DNA of 64,000 nt from an uncultured Chthonomonas sp. (GCA_903951425.1 CAJBBX010000130.1:1-64000), one strand, 5' to 3'; positions 23,384-29,246 are shown, numbered from the stretch's first letter. The notes: generated from the sequence alone by a model not told the origin. A program made the numbers and translations.

Positions 23384-23881
23384 CTACGACCGCGGTCCTT
23401 GTACGCTCTGGCCGGTTCCGCGGAGCGCCTGCACGTCAGCCCGGTCCTTGGGGCGGCCGCTGGCCTGCTTGTTGCGGATGAGGTGGTCGCGGCTGAGAAC
23501 GGGCACGGTCAGGTCGCCGATCACAACCTCCATGCGACAGGGCCACGCCTCGTCGAACGTCAGGCCGTCGATCTGCGTCAGGATGTCGATGCGGCATGGC
23601 GCCACCCCGAGTTGCACCACGGACCCGGGCGCTGCAAAGTCTGAAACAGAGATGCCATCCATCGGCGCACCAAAGGCCGCCAACGCGGTGACGACCCGAG
23701 GGGCGTTGTCGGCGGACGCCCGCACCCACACGTCGATATCGCCCGTGGCTCGCGGTAGTCCATGCGCTGCCAGGGCGAAGGCCCCGACAACCAGGTACTC
23801 AACCCGCTGGGCGGATAACTCGCACAATATGTCGCGATAGCCCCGGTTCAGCAATGGGTTCTCCCATGAACGCCCAGGCAT
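23384..23881 (-). CDS. MNT-type nucleotidyltransferase (possible antitoxin or conflict-system enzyme)
   Basis: The protein is 165 aa from ATG 23881. VEYLVVGAFALAAHG followed by TGDIDVWV is the nucleotide-binding loop and metal-binding D-x-D of small Pol-beta-like nucleotidyltransferases. A third acidic region occurs in RIDILTQIDGLTFDEAW. LSRDHLIRNKQASGRPKDRAD is the conserved C-terminal element of this group. Members include the AbiEii-like and DUF6036-like proteins and MntA, which transfer nucleotides to proteins or tRNA, often in toxin-antitoxin pairs. Its start lies 83 bp inside the preceding 77-aa gene, so the two are translationally coupled. No HEPN toxin is adjacent. The enzyme fold is confident; the target is unknown. 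Confidence 0.8.
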   Translation of the reverse strand: MPGRSWENPLLNRGYRDILCELSAQRVEYLVVGAFALAAHGLPRATGDIDVWVRASADNAPRVVTALAAFGAPMDGISVSDFAAPGSVVQLGVAPCRIDILTQIDGLTFDEAWPCRMEVVIGDLTVPVLSRDHLIRNKQASGRPKDRADVQALRGTGQSVQGPRS

Positions 23882-24032
23882 CCTGCGCCAGTTGCCACAT
23901 CATCTCCACTCGCTCGGCTGCCGTCGTGCCGGCCAGGTCGGTGTCGGCGTCGGGTTCACCAAGGCGCGAGACGCGAACGCGCATCCTGCCACGCGCCGCA
24001 CGGACCGCCGCGTCGTCGTCAACCTCAGGCAC
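23799..24032 (-). CDS. 77-aa conserved small protein coupled to the nucleotidyltransferase
   Basis: It starts at GTG 24032, justified by GGAGGAGG about six bases upstream on the minus strand; the ATG nearby is in another frame. The protein is basic and amphipathic: RMRVRVSRLGEPDADTDLAG, then AERVEMMWQLAQDAWAFMGE and SRHIVRVIR. The MW.L..DAWAF.GEP pattern resembles, from memory, small proteins encoded just upstream of nucleotidyltransferases in other bacteria. It is a candidate substrate, regulator or toxin partner of the enzyme. The 83-bp overlap and shared promoter indicate a coupled unit. Function not known. Confidence 0.7.
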   Translation of the reverse strand: MPEVDDDAAVRAARGRMRVRVSRLGEPDADTDLAGTTAAERVEMMWQLAQDAWAFMGEPIAEPGLSRHIVRVIRPAG

Positions 24033-24088
24033 ATCGCCCTCCTCCGGGGCCCCTCAGATACCTCGTCCGATAGCTACTCCCTATCCAC

Positions 24089-24159: not shown

Positions 24160-27100
24160 CTACCTGAGCCACGCACCAGACAGAGCGAACGGCGCCCAGT
24201 AGTAGGGATGGGCGTACTTCGGGTTGCGGCGGACAGCCATCTGGGCCTGCCGCAGGGCTTCCGCCATGCTGGCGCGCTTGGCACCGGTCGCGAAGAGCCT
24301 GCGGTACAGGTCGACCATGAGGGTGCGCGTGCTTTCGTCGTAGACCTGCCATTGGGAGGCGATCGACGCCGTCGCGCCGCCCACGAAGAGCGCCCATGTG
24401 AGCCCCAGCACGCCCTCGCCGCTGAACTGACGCCCCAACGCCGTCTCACACGCCGACAGCACCACCAGATCGGCGTTCAGGTTCATGTCGGCCATGTCGC
24501 GCGCCCGCAGGAGCCCATCGTCATCGCCTGACTTGCTCAGAACGACGGCGGACTGCATGGGCGAGATCTCATTCAGAATGCCGTGGGTCGCGAAGTGGAT
24601 GTAGCGGGCATGGTGCGCCGCGGCCTCGACGCTGGGCCGGGTGGCAGAGAGCCCGGTCAGGATGCGCGCCTTCCCCTTGGCCAGGGCGGCAATGCGGCGC
24701 ACCTCGTCGGCGGTGGCGGGCAGCGGCGTGAAGCCCCTGGCAAACCTGGGCGATCCCACTGCGAGCAGGCCCTTGCCGGCGGTCTTCCGGCTACCGGCCA
24801 CGCGGACCATACGGACCAGCGCGGTAACCGATGGCGCGTAGCTGATCGAGTAGCGCGCCGCCAGCGGCTGGTTCCTGGCGTCCAGGAGCGCGGCAAAGGG
24901 CATGGGCGGCGCGCTGGAGTCCGGCACGATGACGAGGTGCGACTTACCGGCAAGGAGGCGTGCGGCCGGCGCTACCAGCCGACCGAAGAGCGATCGCGCG
25001 CTTCTGGTGTAGTTGCCCGTCGGCACGGCCACGTTGCGCCACAGGGCCTCGGCGTCTGCGCGGATGTCGTCCACGCTGACGGAGGTCCTGACCAGGGTCA
25101 GTCGAGCGCCGTCGCCTCTGGGCCTGTCCACTACGAAGAGGAAGCACTCGTCTCGGAGGAAGGTGTAACTGAGTACCGCGGTCCCCGGCGCAGGCGCGAG
25201 GATCGCTGCATTGATCTCGCTCAGGGCGACCGGCCGGAACTCCGCCCTCCGGGTCTCCAGGTCGGGGCGCTGCAGGTAGAGCGCAAGGCGGAACTCATCG
25301 GCCTCTCTGCGCACCTTCTCGATCTGCAACTGCAGCCCGTCGATCTCATCGGTGCTTACGGCGCCTTCCATCTGCTTGGCCAGTTGCTGCAACCGATCTT
25401 CAAGCGCCCTTTCGCGCTGCCTCTCCCCGGTGGTCATCTTCTTGCGCAGATTGACCTTCCCGCCCTGGAGCAGGTCGCCAAGGCTTCTGGCCTTCGCCCG
25501 TTCCGAGGCGGCGAAGGCCTCGCGGACGTTGCCGGTCTCCACGAGGCTCTGGATCAGGCTTCGGTAGGTGGGCACGTGCTGCCGGAGCAGACTGGACTTG
25601 AGCGACTGCTCTCTGGTCTCAAGCCGTCTGCGCTCGACGAAGGTGATCGCCTTGGCATAGGCCGCACAGGCAGTGGGCCAGTCCTTTCGCGCAGCGGCAA
25701 GGTCACCATAGCAGCCCCAGACCTGCTGCTGGATCAGGAGGGAAGCCGTTGCCTCGGACAGAACCCGGGCCTGGTCGAGCCTCTGTCGCGCTTCATCCGC
25801 CCGGCCCAACCGCGTGAGAGCGAAGCCGGCCGCCATCAGGACAGACGCTTCCTGTACTCTGTTGCCCATGGCCCGCGCCGCCTCGAGCCCCGGCCCCAGA
25901 TACTCCAGGGCCTCGACGTACCTCTTCTCCTGCAGCAGAATCTGCTGCAGGAGCCCATGCGTCTGTGCCTGGAACCGCCTTTCGTCGATCTCGTCGGCCA
26001 GCTTGGCGGACAGCACGCCGCTGTCAAGGGCGCGGCCGATATCGCCGAGCTTGGCCTGAATGCCGGCCAGATTGTGGAGCGCCATCATCTGGCCGTACTT
26101 GTCGTCGACGGTCTCGAACGCCCTGCGCGCCTCGATGTACTGATCTCGGGCCTCATGAGGACGTCCGACCGATTCGAGCGTGTAACCGAGGCTGACCAGT
26201 GCGTACCCAACGGACCCTGCCTCGTTCGCGTCGCGCAGGACCCCAAGCGCCTTGTAGAGGAGGGCCAGGGCCTCGCCGTGCCGTTCCAGGTCGCCCAGGA
26301 TCCCCGCCTCGTTGGCCATGAGGGTGGCTTCCTTGGAGCGCTCCTTACGCCGGGCGCGGATGGCCCTGGCTTCGCGGTTCAGCGTCAGGGCTTCGCCCGG
26401 CTTGCCCATGTGCTTCAGGGCTCCGCTGATATCCTGCAGCGCGTTGGCCTCGGCGTCCTCGTCATGGTTCGCGCGAGCGGTCTCCAGCCCCGACCGGTAG
26501 AACTTGAGCGCCTTCTCCATCAGCCCGAGCTGGCTGTAGATGGCGGCAGCGTACGTCTGCGTCTTGGCCTCGCCCTCCGCGTCCTTTGCCTTGCTGAAGT
26601 GCTTCCGTGCCATCTCGTAGTCGGCGAGGGCCGGGTTCCACTCCGTCTTTCGCTTCCACAGGGTGCCGCGGTTCAGATAGCAGTAGCCGATCTCATAGTC
26701 GCTCTGCAGGCTCTCGGCCACCGCGAAGGCCGCATCGGAGCTTCGCAGGGCCTCGTCGTGCTTGCTTTTTCGGCTTAGTTCCGTCGCGTCTCGCCGGAGC
26801 TGGAGCGCCAGCGCGGCGTCGATCAGCTCCAGATTGCCGGCGATGATCTCGCGCCACGCATCTGCGCCAGCGGCCGTGACCAGGGCCTGCTTCACGTACT
26901 CGTTGGCGTCCCGTGTGCCCTGTATGAGCCAACCCTCCGGCTCCCTGTCCACGCGGAAGTCCAGGGCCAGCGAGTGTTTGCCCTTGGCGTCGCTCCAGCC
27001 TACGATGAGGCGCACGACCGCCATCTCGTTGTCACCGATGCGGTAGAGGACCCGTACCGCGGCGTCCGACGCCATGCCCAGGGCGATGGCTTCAGCGGTC

Positions 27101-27345
27101 AGGGCCTGCAGCTTGGGAAGGAGCGCGGGCCTGGCTGTGCAGACCTTCAGGGCTGAAGCGATCTCTCTGCCGAGAACGGCCCGGATGTAGGCGTCTACCG
27201 CGGCCCGCGGCGCGTCCTCGGTGGCCGCCTGGCCCGTAGCGGGGCCGCAGCACACCATGAGGATCAGGGGAAGGAGCGCTCGGAAGAGCATCGCGTTTGG
27301 GCCGGCGCGGCGGACCGCCGGCATCTGCGGGCGGTCCGCCGTCAT
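24160..27345 (-). CDS. Exported TPR-CHAT (caspase-like) protease
   Basis: The protein is about 1061 aa from ATG 27345, nine bases after the stop codon of the subtilase. A second ATG at 27291 begins directly at the signal peptide (MLFRALLPLILMVCCGPATG), and either start exports the protein. Residues about 190-580 are tetratricopeptide repeats (YEIGYCYLNRGTLWKR; YALVSLGYTLESVGRPHEA). A coiled-coil linker lies around 620-680. The last roughly 350 residues are a CHAT domain with catalytic His921 in YIHFATHGIL and Cys966 in VVLSACETALG, then the usual GGATASIASQWQV. CHAT domains are caspase-fold cysteine peptidases. Gene order indicates co-expression with the subtilase. Inference: an extracytoplasmic proteolytic pair. 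Substrate unknown. Confidence 0.88.
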   Translation of the reverse strand: MTADRPQMPAVRRAGPNAMLFRALLPLILMVCCGPATGQAATEDAPRAAVDAYIRAVLGREIASALKVCTARPALLPKLQALTAEAIALGMASDAAVRVLYRIGDNEMAVVRLIVGWSDAKGKHSLALDFRVDREPEGWLIQGTRDANEYVKQALVTAAGADAWREIIAGNLELIDAALALQLRRDATELSRKSKHDEALRSSDAAFAVAESLQSDYEIGYCYLNRGTLWKRKTEWNPALADYEMARKHFSKAKDAEGEAKTQTYAAAIYSQLGLMEKALKFYRSGLETARANHDEDAEANALQDISGALKHMGKPGEALTLNREARAIRARRKERSKEATLMANEAGILGDLERHGEALALLYKALGVLRDANEAGSVGYALVSLGYTLESVGRPHEARDQYIEARRAFETVDDKYGQMMALHNLAGIQAKLGDIGRALDSGVLSAKLADEIDERRFQAQTHGLLQQILLQEKRYVEALEYLGPGLEAARAMGNRVQEASVLMAAGFALTRLGRADEARQRLDQARVLSEATASLLIQQQVWGCYGDLAAARKDWPTACAAYAKAITFVERRRLETREQSLKSSLLRQHVPTYRSLIQSLVETGNVREAFAASERAKARSLGDLLQGGKVNLRKKMTTGERQRERALEDRLQQLAKQMEGAVSTDEIDGLQLQIEKVRREADEFRLALYLQRPDLETRRAEFRPVALSEINAAILAPAPGTAVLSYTFLRDECFLFVVDRPRGDGARLTLVRTSVSVDDIRADAEALWRNVAVPTGNYTRSARSLFGRLVAPAARLLAGKSHLVIVPDSSAPPMPFAALLDARNQPLAARYSISYAPSVTALVRMVRVAGSRKTAGKGLLAVGSPRFARGFTPLPATADEVRRIAALAKGKARILTGLSATRPSVEAAAHHARYIHFATHGILNEISPMQSAVVLSKSGDDDGLLRARDMADMNLNADLVVLSACETALGRQFSGEGVLGLTWALFVGGATASIASQWQVYDESTRTLMVDLYRRLFATGAKRASMAEALRQAQMAVRRNPKYAHPYYWAPFALSGAWLR

Positions 27346-27353
27346 GGTCCGGC

Positions 27354-29246
27354 CTACTGGAGCGCGCCTATGATGGTGCGCACGGCCGCAAGGTCCAGCT
27401 TGCCGTAACCCCACTTCGGGTTGGGGAGCGCGCCGGTGAAGCTGTCCGATGAGGCGGAGGTATGGATGAGCCGCTTCACTTCGCCGAACGTGAGCCCGGG
27501 CTTCTTCTGGAACACGAGGGCTATGATGCCGGACACGTAGGGTGTGGCGGCGCTGGTCCCGTTGAAGAGCTGGTACTTGTTGCTCGTGTCGCGCGTGCCC
27601 TTGGTGGCGTTGAGCGGTACGGGCGCGGAGTAGAACTGGCCCGGGGCGACAATGTCCGGTTTCACCACCGAGGAGTCCCGGCTCGGGCCTACGCTCGAGT
27701 AGGAGGAGAGGCTGCCGATCGCCATCGCCACGCCTCCGGGGCTGACTGTGACCTGGTTGCCGTCCTTCTCGAAGCGGTCATTCCAGTCGTAGCTGCCCAC
27801 CGTGATTGCGGCGGCGGCGGTTCCAGGCCGGCCCACCAGCTTGGAGTACGCGGCGCATGTCTTGTCGAACTCGCCGCCGTCGATGTATGCGTCGCACTTC
27901 ACGGCGCTGCCTGACGCCGTGAAGATGACCATTCCTCCGTCGCCCTTCCCCATGCCGGCGACCGGAACAAGCGCCTGCTTGGTTGCGCTATCGACCTTGG
28001 CGCTGAGCTTCGGCAGCGTGGTTCCGGCGGCCGCACGGAAGCGGACGTCGGACAGGTCGTCTGTGTCGAAGATGAGCGACAGCGACGCGCCTTCGCCGGC
28101 CTTCCACTTCAGCTCGGACGGCTTGGCGGCTGTGCCGAGTGTGAGGTCGGCATGGATCGCGTCGGAGCCCTCGTTTCCGGCGGCAACGCAGATCGCGCGC
28201 CCCGCCAGGCCGGCCGGGAACCGGGCGTTGAGCTGCTGCTCCTCAATGCTCCGCCCGTCGTGCCTCCCGTTCTGCCCACCGAAGCTGCAGGAGACGACGA
28301 GCGGCTGCGATCCGGCGACCTTGTCCAGCCAGGCGCAGGCCGCGTTCAGTACCCAGGAGTTCTCCAGTCCGCCGGCTGGGGTACCACCGATGCGCACCCC
28401 GATGATGTCGGCATCGGGGGCAACGCCGATGTGCCGCCTGTCGGCGCCGCCGCTACCGGCAGCGATCCCCGCGCAGGAGGTCCCGTGTCCGTTCAGGTCG
28501 CGGTCGCCGATGGCGGAGCTAGCCGCCTGCAGGTCGGCAGTCAACTGGTCTCGCGTGAAGAGCGTGCCGACTGAGGCTCCGTTCGGGTACCGGATCGGTG
28601 CGGCGGAGCCGCCCTTACCGGCGTCGAAGTCCGGGCTGGTCGTGTCCCACAGATAGAGCAGGCGCGAGACCGGCTTGCCATTCTCGATCCGGATGAAGTC
28701 CTGGTGGCGGAAGTCCACTCCGGAGTCCACCACTGCCACGATCACGCCCTTACCGGTCAAGCCGCTGATTCCGCCCCGTACGATCTTGTCAGGTTCGCCT
28801 CGAACGGCCGCCTTCCCGGCTACCGGAGGAGGAGACGCTCCCACGCGGCCGGCCACCTCGAAGCGTACGAGGCCAGCCGACTTCTCGATGGCGGCGCCGA
28901 CGGTCGCGATCTTGCTGAGAGGCAGGAAGACGTCGGCGAAACGGTCCACCTGCGTGAAGGCCGGCGCTTCGGCCACGGCATAGGCAAGGCAGTTCGCCGG
29001 TGTGTCGAACTCCAGGTTCAGGACCAGGAACGTCTCGCCGCCCTGGGCAGGAGCGGACGGGGCGTCTCCAGCCGCCTTAACGCCGGGACGGGCGACCCGG
29101 GACGCTGCCACGCGCAACCAGTCAAGCCGGCCGACCGAGGTCGCACTGACTACGGGACCGAGCCGGGCACGGGCAGCGGGTTTGCGCTGCTGGGCGAAGG
29201 CGGGTAACACGACTGCGCTCAGGCAGAGCGCCACCAGGGCACGCAT
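27354..29246 (-). CDS. Secreted subtilisin-like serine protease (peptidase family S8)
   Basis: The protein is 630 aa from ATG 29246, chosen because it opens with a signal peptide (MRALVALCLSAVVLPAFA); the upstream extension reads as non-coding. The S8 triad is complete: Asp174 in VIVAVVDSGVDF, His254 in LNGHGTSCAGIAAG and Ser565 in FNGTSAATPYVSG. The long insertion between His and Ser contains a beta-rich region (FRAAAGTTLPKLSAKVDSAT). A prodomain-like segment precedes the catalytic domain. The stop is nine bases from the downstream CHAT gene's ATG, giving a two-gene operon. Possible roles are extracellular protein degradation or zymogen processing of the CHAT protease. The family is certain. 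Confidence 0.92.
   Translation of the reverse strand: MRALVALCLSAVVLPAFAQQRKPAARARLGPVVSATSVGRLDWLRVAASRVARPGVKAAGDAPSAPAQGGETFLVLNLEFDTPANCLAYAVAEAPAFTQVDRFADVFLPLSKIATVGAAIEKSAGLVRFEVAGRVGASPPPVAGKAAVRGEPDKIVRGGISGLTGKGVIVAVVDSGVDFRHQDFIRIENGKPVSRLLYLWDTTSPDFDAGKGGSAAPIRYPNGASVGTLFTRDQLTADLQAASSAIGDRDLNGHGTSCAGIAAGSGGADRRHIGVAPDADIIGVRIGGTPAGGLENSWVLNAACAWLDKVAGSQPLVVSCSFGGQNGRHDGRSIEEQQLNARFPAGLAGRAICVAAGNEGSDAIHADLTLGTAAKPSELKWKAGEGASLSLIFDTDDLSDVRFRAAAGTTLPKLSAKVDSATKQALVPVAGMGKGDGGMVIFTASGSAVKCDAYIDGGEFDKTCAAYSKLVGRPGTAAAAITVGSYDWNDRFEKDGNQVTVSPGGVAMAIGSLSSYSSVGPSRDSSVVKPDIVAPGQFYSAPVPLNATKGTRDTSNKYQLFNGTSAATPYVSGIIALVFQKKPGLTFGEVKRLIHTSASSDSFTGALPNPKWGYGKLDLAAVRTIIGALQ

Follow-up and report, generated by a model that had tools for sequence, protein, structure and literature searches.

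Caspase-type proteases of bacteria have been studied best as intracellular components of defence or development. The core of the NTP-dependent conflict systems is a STAND, MoxR-vWA, GTPase or NucA component beside peptidases (PMC7159879), neighbouring genes for CHAT proteins and subtilases (peptidase family S8) have been described for the ECF54 group of extracytoplasmic function (ECF) sigma factors (PMC8999054), and, among the subtilases themselves, the clostridial Csp proteases are known zymogen activators (PMC3567191). Here we describe a pair of genes encoding a Csp-like subtilase and a caspase-fold protease of the TPR-CHAT type, both intact and probably exported, found in a stretch of 64,000 nucleotides from an uncultured Chthonomonas sp. 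(GCA_903951425.1, CAJBBX010000130.1:1-64000; the whole stretch is called the window below). No description of an exported subtilase/caspase-fold pair was found in the open papers searched, subscription journals lying outside that search.

Six genomes of the Armatimonadota carry the clade of Csp-like subtilases to which that of the window belongs, and in all six a gene for an exported caspase-fold protein lies directly downstream; the neighbourhood survey thus does not bear out that relatives never pair the two genes, the outcome that a sequence-only reading of the window had named as contrary to its proposal. Three of these genomes (those of the window, G007 and G009) belong to the same class and have a full subtilase orthologue, followed directly by a CHAT gene in 3/3; the pair is present in 3 of 12 members of the window's family. 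The CHAT gene of G007 runs off the end of its contig, and a matching fragment with the His and Cys, probably its C-terminus, ends another contig. A search of the phylum with a profile of the three same-class subtilases led to G051 and G052, from another family, and to G070. In the former two a CHAT gene follows the subtilase with a 4-nt overlap, and in G070 the subtilase gene overlaps by 35 nt that of an exported-looking Peptidase_C14 caspase (PF00656, E 2.5e-23) with intact His and Cys motifs; the junctions within the window's family are spacers of 8, 8 and 7 nt. The Asp/His/Asn/Ser set is kept in 6/6 subtilases, and the partner's His/Cys pair is present in five of the pairs, in addition to the probable G007 fragment.

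The evidence that we consider to carry most weight comes from the replacement of the partner. In each of three trees the paired subtilases of the six genomes group as a single clade (support 98/96, 99/99 and 100/99), whereas their CHAT partners from the two families do not group: a tree forcing them together is 143 log units worse, and a single origin of these partners is rejected by the AU (approximately unbiased) test (p 1.2e-54). Three kinds of partner are distinguished, namely CHAT type A in the window's family, CHAT type B in another family and the C14 caspase, which means that the neighbour was exchanged two or more times along a single subtilase lineage while the arrangement was kept. 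This replacement under a constant subtilase-first order argues for functional coupling, and it constitutes strong comparative evidence: since a caspase-fold neighbour stays with this subtilase lineage even when it comes from a different family, a functional link is likely, and the comparison suggests that the two proteases work together outside the cell membrane. The fuller proposition, that the pair forms a functionally coupled exported two-protease module, stands in our estimation at an even balance.

It could be argued that the two genes are chance neighbours kept by descent, their adjacency having arisen once or twice without functional meaning, and plain inheritance could indeed account for the adjacency shared inside each family. 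Nevertheless, the genome of the window (6.08 Mb) contains just 3 CHAT, 5 S8 and no C14 genes, from which chance CHAT/S8 adjacency is calculated at about 0.3 percent per genome; the change of partner identity, at least two times on one lineage, and the tight junctions (spacers of 7-8 nt or overlaps) also make this explanation quite improbable. The other two CHAT genes of the same genome were inspected, and neither adjoins a subtilase.

The features of the pair, in coordinates of the window, are the following:

27354..29246, minus strand: exported Csp-like subtilase (S8) of 630 amino acids, first gene of the pair (ATG at 29246; PF00082, E 3.8e-39)
29190..29246, minus strand: signal-peptide-like N-terminus of the subtilase, MRALVALCLSAVVLPAFAQ (hydropathy; signal-like in all six orthologues)
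28764..28838, minus strand: flexible linker (residues 137-161) joining the prodomain to the catalytic domain and including Arg157-Gly158 (alignment, linker comparison, low pLDDT over 123-161)
28725..28727, minus strand: catalytic Asp174 of the subtilase (sequence, alignment)
28485..28487, minus strand: catalytic His254 of the subtilase (sequence, alignment)
27552..27554, minus strand: catalytic Ser565 of the subtilase (sequence, alignment)
27831..28160, minus strand: beta-rich stretch of about residues 363-472, inserted in the catalytic domain where Csp proteases have their jellyroll (model strands from 363-369 to 469-472)
24160..27345, minus strand: exported TPR-CHAT protease of 1061 amino acids, second gene of the pair (PF12770, E 1.2e-68; five TPR_12 stretches)
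27226..27345, minus strand: N-terminus of the CHAT protein with the signal-peptide-like segment MLFRALLPLILMVCCGPATGQA (hydropathy; signal-like in the G007 and G009 orthologues)
26908..27225, minus strand: small domain of an alpha-helix and four strands, about residues 41-146, of no Pfam family (model)
25666..26817, minus strand: TPR superhelix, about residues 177-560, well predicted (Pfam, model)
24172..25005, minus strand: CHAT caspase-fold domain, with His921 at 24583-24585 and Cys966 at 24448-24450 (sequence)

Both open reading frames are present in the window with complete active sites, the subtilase gene lying upstream of the TPR-CHAT gene. The adjacency given by the sequence-only reading holds, its distance of nine bases being a difference of coordinates across a true spacer of 8 nt (27346-27353), and the catalytic residues it listed (Asp174/His254/Ser565 and His921/Cys966) are exact for the ATG starts. 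The N-terminal signal peptides that it attributed to both products look indeed like export signals by hydropathy: MRALVALCLSAVVLPAFAQ and MLFRALLPLILMVCCGPATGQA are the most hydrophobic segments of their respective proteins. In the CHAT protein an 18-residue basic extension precedes this segment if ATG 27345 is used, and as the hydrophobic stretch starts at residue 19, translation may truly begin at either ATG 27345 or ATG 27291.

The subtilase belongs to the Peptidase S8 family (PF00082, 135 bits against a cut-off of 21.8), with the triad in place, and its closest named relatives are found in metagenome-assembled genomes of the Chthonomonadales (Armatimonadota). The nearest solved structures, by both sequence and fold, are those of the clostridial Csp proteases, the best match of its model in the Protein Data Bank by Foldseek being CspB (4i0w, E 5e-25); the NCBIfam Csp models match it far under their cut-offs. 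With a mean pLDDT of 58 the model is of moderate confidence; it presents a small fold resembling a prodomain, a linker predicted with low confidence (residues 123-161), a catalytic domain and a beta-rich stretch. The latter is inserted between the oxyanion Asn and the catalytic Ser, as in the Csp fold, and its position (363-472) corresponds to that of the jellyroll insert carried by CspB (PMC3567191). Furthermore, a PP motif is common to the linkers of all six paired subtilases, as is an Arg-Gly (residues 157-158 in the window) that is invariant among them, and this Arg-Gly is absent from comparable solo relatives in the alignment. More distant Csp-like subtilases (G057, G222 and those of other phyla) are without a caspase-fold neighbour, and that of G195 adjoins a metallo-beta-lactamase-like gene. 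Beyond the Chthonomonadales, one scan of genome contigs returned only distant subtilases, none with a CHAT neighbour.

The partner protein belongs to PF12770 (232 bits against a cut-off of 24) and contains both His921 and Cys966; its N-terminal domain of a helix and four strands has no Pfam match.

Considering these elements together, the two genes would belong to one operon encoding an extracytoplasmic module of two proteases. The subtilase would be exported as a proenzyme composed of signal peptide, prodomain and catalytic domain with its beta-rich insert, and the caspase-fold protease, encoded on one transcript with it, would be exported as well. The TPR-CHAT protease would sense a signal in the cell envelope by means of its TPR and N-terminal domains, and would then cut the exposed Arg-Gly linker of the subtilase, freeing the catalytic domain from the prodomain, after which the released subtilase would carry out the bulk of the proteolysis. 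The sequence itself gives the intact active sites, the export-type N-termini, the tight gene coupling and the recurrence with three kinds of caspase-fold partner on one lineage; that the two proteases act on each other is our inference.

The direction from the caspase-fold partner to the subtilase is the one that we prefer, as a minority bet falling a little short of even. The reverse, in which the subtilase would activate its caspase-fold partner by analogy with the activation of pro-SleC by CspB, appears rather unlikely, and the remaining probability goes to parallel action or to no relation between the two. For the preferred direction, the Arg-Gly of the linker is a candidate activation site, the caspase-fold partner being presumed to prefer Arg. 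Endopeptidases of the caspase clan (gingipain R, clostripain, separase, metacaspases) often cut after Arg, hence one caspase family could take the place of another as activator. A general form of this idea, a caspase-subtilase cascade outside the cytoplasm in which the Arg-Gly zymogen site is cut by whichever exported caspase-fold partner has been recruited (a CHAT protein of either of two distant lineages or a C14 caspase), is possible and on the doubtful side.

Several points weigh against this explanation. Adjacency is no proof of physical interaction, and it is equally possible that the Arg-Gly, lying in a flexible linker, is where the subtilase processes itself. The CHAT domain was modelled unreliably from an alignment of three sequences. 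Moreover, the export signals were called by a hydropathy heuristic, that of L108, a locus from a second-family genome, was recognised by eye, and the subtilase clade is known from six genomes of one phylum, five of them draft assemblies.

As regards the export of CHAT proteins in general, the sequence-only reading, whose interpretation is borne out in part, had considered an extracytoplasmic cascade of two proteases unusual; the export of a CHAT protein is by itself not so. About 80 further Armatimonadota CHAT loci, taken from the top-scoring ones, were screened for S8 genes as a background sample, and 45 of the 84 complete Armatimonadota CHAT proteins were called exported by a simple heuristic for signal peptides, which gave a mean of 12 for shuffled sequences and 2/84 for the protein interior; these counts are rough because a clear signal, that of L108, escapes it. 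CHAT proteins on cyanobacterial and proteobacterial plasmids also start with export-type N-termini, and the rarity of exported CHAT proteins was accordingly rejected.

In many relatives an exported CHAT protein occurs by itself and so needs no subtilase, which is in line with another option: that the two exported proteases act independently and in parallel, for instance by removing misfolded or foreign proteins from the envelope, and share a transcript only because both are required at one time. The completeness of both active sites and the variation of the flanking genes also fit this option. On the other hand, co-expression alone predicts less well that one subtilase clade is always accompanied by a caspase-fold follower despite the change of partner, and parallel action seems to us a rather unlikely explanation.

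Other arrangements of exported-looking CHAT genes were recorded. Such CHAT genes and genes for C14 caspases that look exported as well adjoin, without a subtilase, in L156:4990-11235 (same strand) and in L191:7361-12255 and L134:4372-10444 (opposite strands). On a Leptolyngbya plasmid (AP017311, L216:6725-11517) a signal-like CHAT gene is followed, with a 4-nt overlap, by a caspase gene whose product has a twin-arginine-like N-terminus. On a Caballeronia plasmid (L215:5858-15020), the CHAT gene adjoins those of a ShlB/FhaC two-partner secretion protein and a filamentous haemagglutinin, near type VI secretion genes.

The screened loci of the phylum also include 11 with the reverse order, in which a CHAT gene precedes one for a small exported S8 protease of another clade (L153, L159, L164, L166, L168, L171, L174, L176, L178, L184 and L187). 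Among those inspected, an anti-sigma-like gene usually lies upstream, and an ECF sigma gene was seen in L166, L176 and L184. These loci resemble the ECF54 operons. The adjacency of CHAT and S8 genes in intracellular systems, stated by the sequence-only reading, finds support in the ECF54 operons (PMC8999054), with the difference that there the order is opposite and the CHAT protein lacks a signal peptide. The window pair could be regarded as a variant of such operons, whose subtilase and CHAT protein would control an ECF sigma factor by proteolysis, an association described for ECF54 (PMC8999054) and echoed by the upstream ECF sigma genes of some of the 11 loci. However, no sigma or anti-sigma gene lies beside the pair in the window, the gene order is reversed, the CHAT protein is exported as against 0/11 with a signal peptide, and both the subtilases and the CHAT proteins of window-type pairs fall in other clades than those of the ECF54-like loci. 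We therefore rejected an ECF54-type identity in favour of a separate arrangement, and consider the variant very improbable. One CHAT paralogue of the window's own genome (C59, L060:7431-11640) groups with the CHAT proteins of the ECF54-type clade; its gene is preceded by an ECF sigma gene and a small gene, and no subtilase gene follows.

The genomic surroundings of the pair were also considered. Its neighbours in the window are genes for GH106, GxGYxYP and GH31 proteins and for a nucleotidyltransferase, and the flanking genes differ between carrier genomes; for this reason the suggestion that the repeat and Ig surface proteins of the window are substrates of the pair is unsupported. RNA elements were looked for around the window pair and none was found. 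A core of the STAND, MoxR-vWA, GTPase or NucA kind adjoins the pair neither in the window nor in G009, and a role of the CHAT protein in a type III-E CRISPR or NTPase conflict system was rejected on the lack of such neighbours in the window. In PADLOC-DB no defence system was specifically matched by both genes, the matches being just generic TPR and subtilase models and weak IetS fragments.

These surroundings also bear on whether the pair might be an exported toxin with its activator or processing protease, directed against neighbouring cells. Two exported proteases, a patchy distribution (3/12 family members) and a context as variable as that of mobile fitness genes would agree with such a role. 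By contrast, in the window as in G009 the pair has no immunity-like or dedicated secretion-system gene next to it, and both CHAT and subtilase orthologues are alignable over almost their full length with no sign of module swaps, so that we hold a toxin to be highly improbable.

Downstream of the CHAT gene, at 23384-24034 on the minus strand of the window, lies the nucleotidyltransferase-like gene (DUF6036, slightly below the cut-off), preceded by a short open reading frame in a possible two-gene unit. In G070 (L111:4102-13411) the subtilase-C14 pair shares its strand with both flanking genes, of which the upstream one encodes a cyclase-NACHT/NB-ARC-TPR protein and the downstream one a WD40 protein that looks exported. 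In the second-family genomes (L108:11510-13066 and L109:2-958) a membrane protein gene is convergent to the subtilase-CHAT pair; a HEIGH motif is found in the L108 protein, and L109 has the C-terminal part of a similar one.

If the proposed coupling is true, caspase-type proteolytic switching would be extended to the bacterial cell envelope; the caspase-subtilase cascade, should it exist, would be a bacterial parallel to eukaryotic protease cascades, outside the cytoplasm.

Compared with known systems, the CHAT proteins encoded next to two-partner secretion genes in Caballeronia or on cyanobacterial plasmids share a signal-peptide-like start and a CHAT domain with the window protein, but no subtilase neighbour was detected for them. 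Csx29, the TPR-CHAT protease of the type III-E CRISPR Craspase, has the same succession of TPR and C-terminal CHAT with His and Cys; in contrast, the CHAT protein of the window is exported and adjoins no Cas7-11 or other Cas gene. Cyanobacterial HetF also unites CHAT and TPR in one protein associated with the membrane or envelope, although there the CHAT region comes first (residues 1-555, PMC8406250), in a protein with a transmembrane segment and TPR, whereas the window protein begins with an export signal and has its TPR first. The ECF54 operons join CHAT and S8 genes in one operon within the same phylum, and differ in the CHAT-then-S8 order, the small S8 protease of another clade, the CHAT protein without a signal peptide and the upstream sigma or anti-sigma genes, none of which is found in the window. 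Finally, the clostridial Csp proteases such as CspB, which acts by cleaving the zymogen pro-SleC, are the nearest by sequence and fold, sharing the prodomain, the catalytic domain and an insert at the jellyroll position. Their germination context, with adjacent SleC or csp genes and no export signal, is replaced in the window by glycoside hydrolase and CHAT neighbours, and at about 23 percent identity to them the window subtilase, with no SleC-like neighbour, has a signal peptide, an Arg-Gly linker not seen in comparable solo relatives, and a caspase-fold partner.

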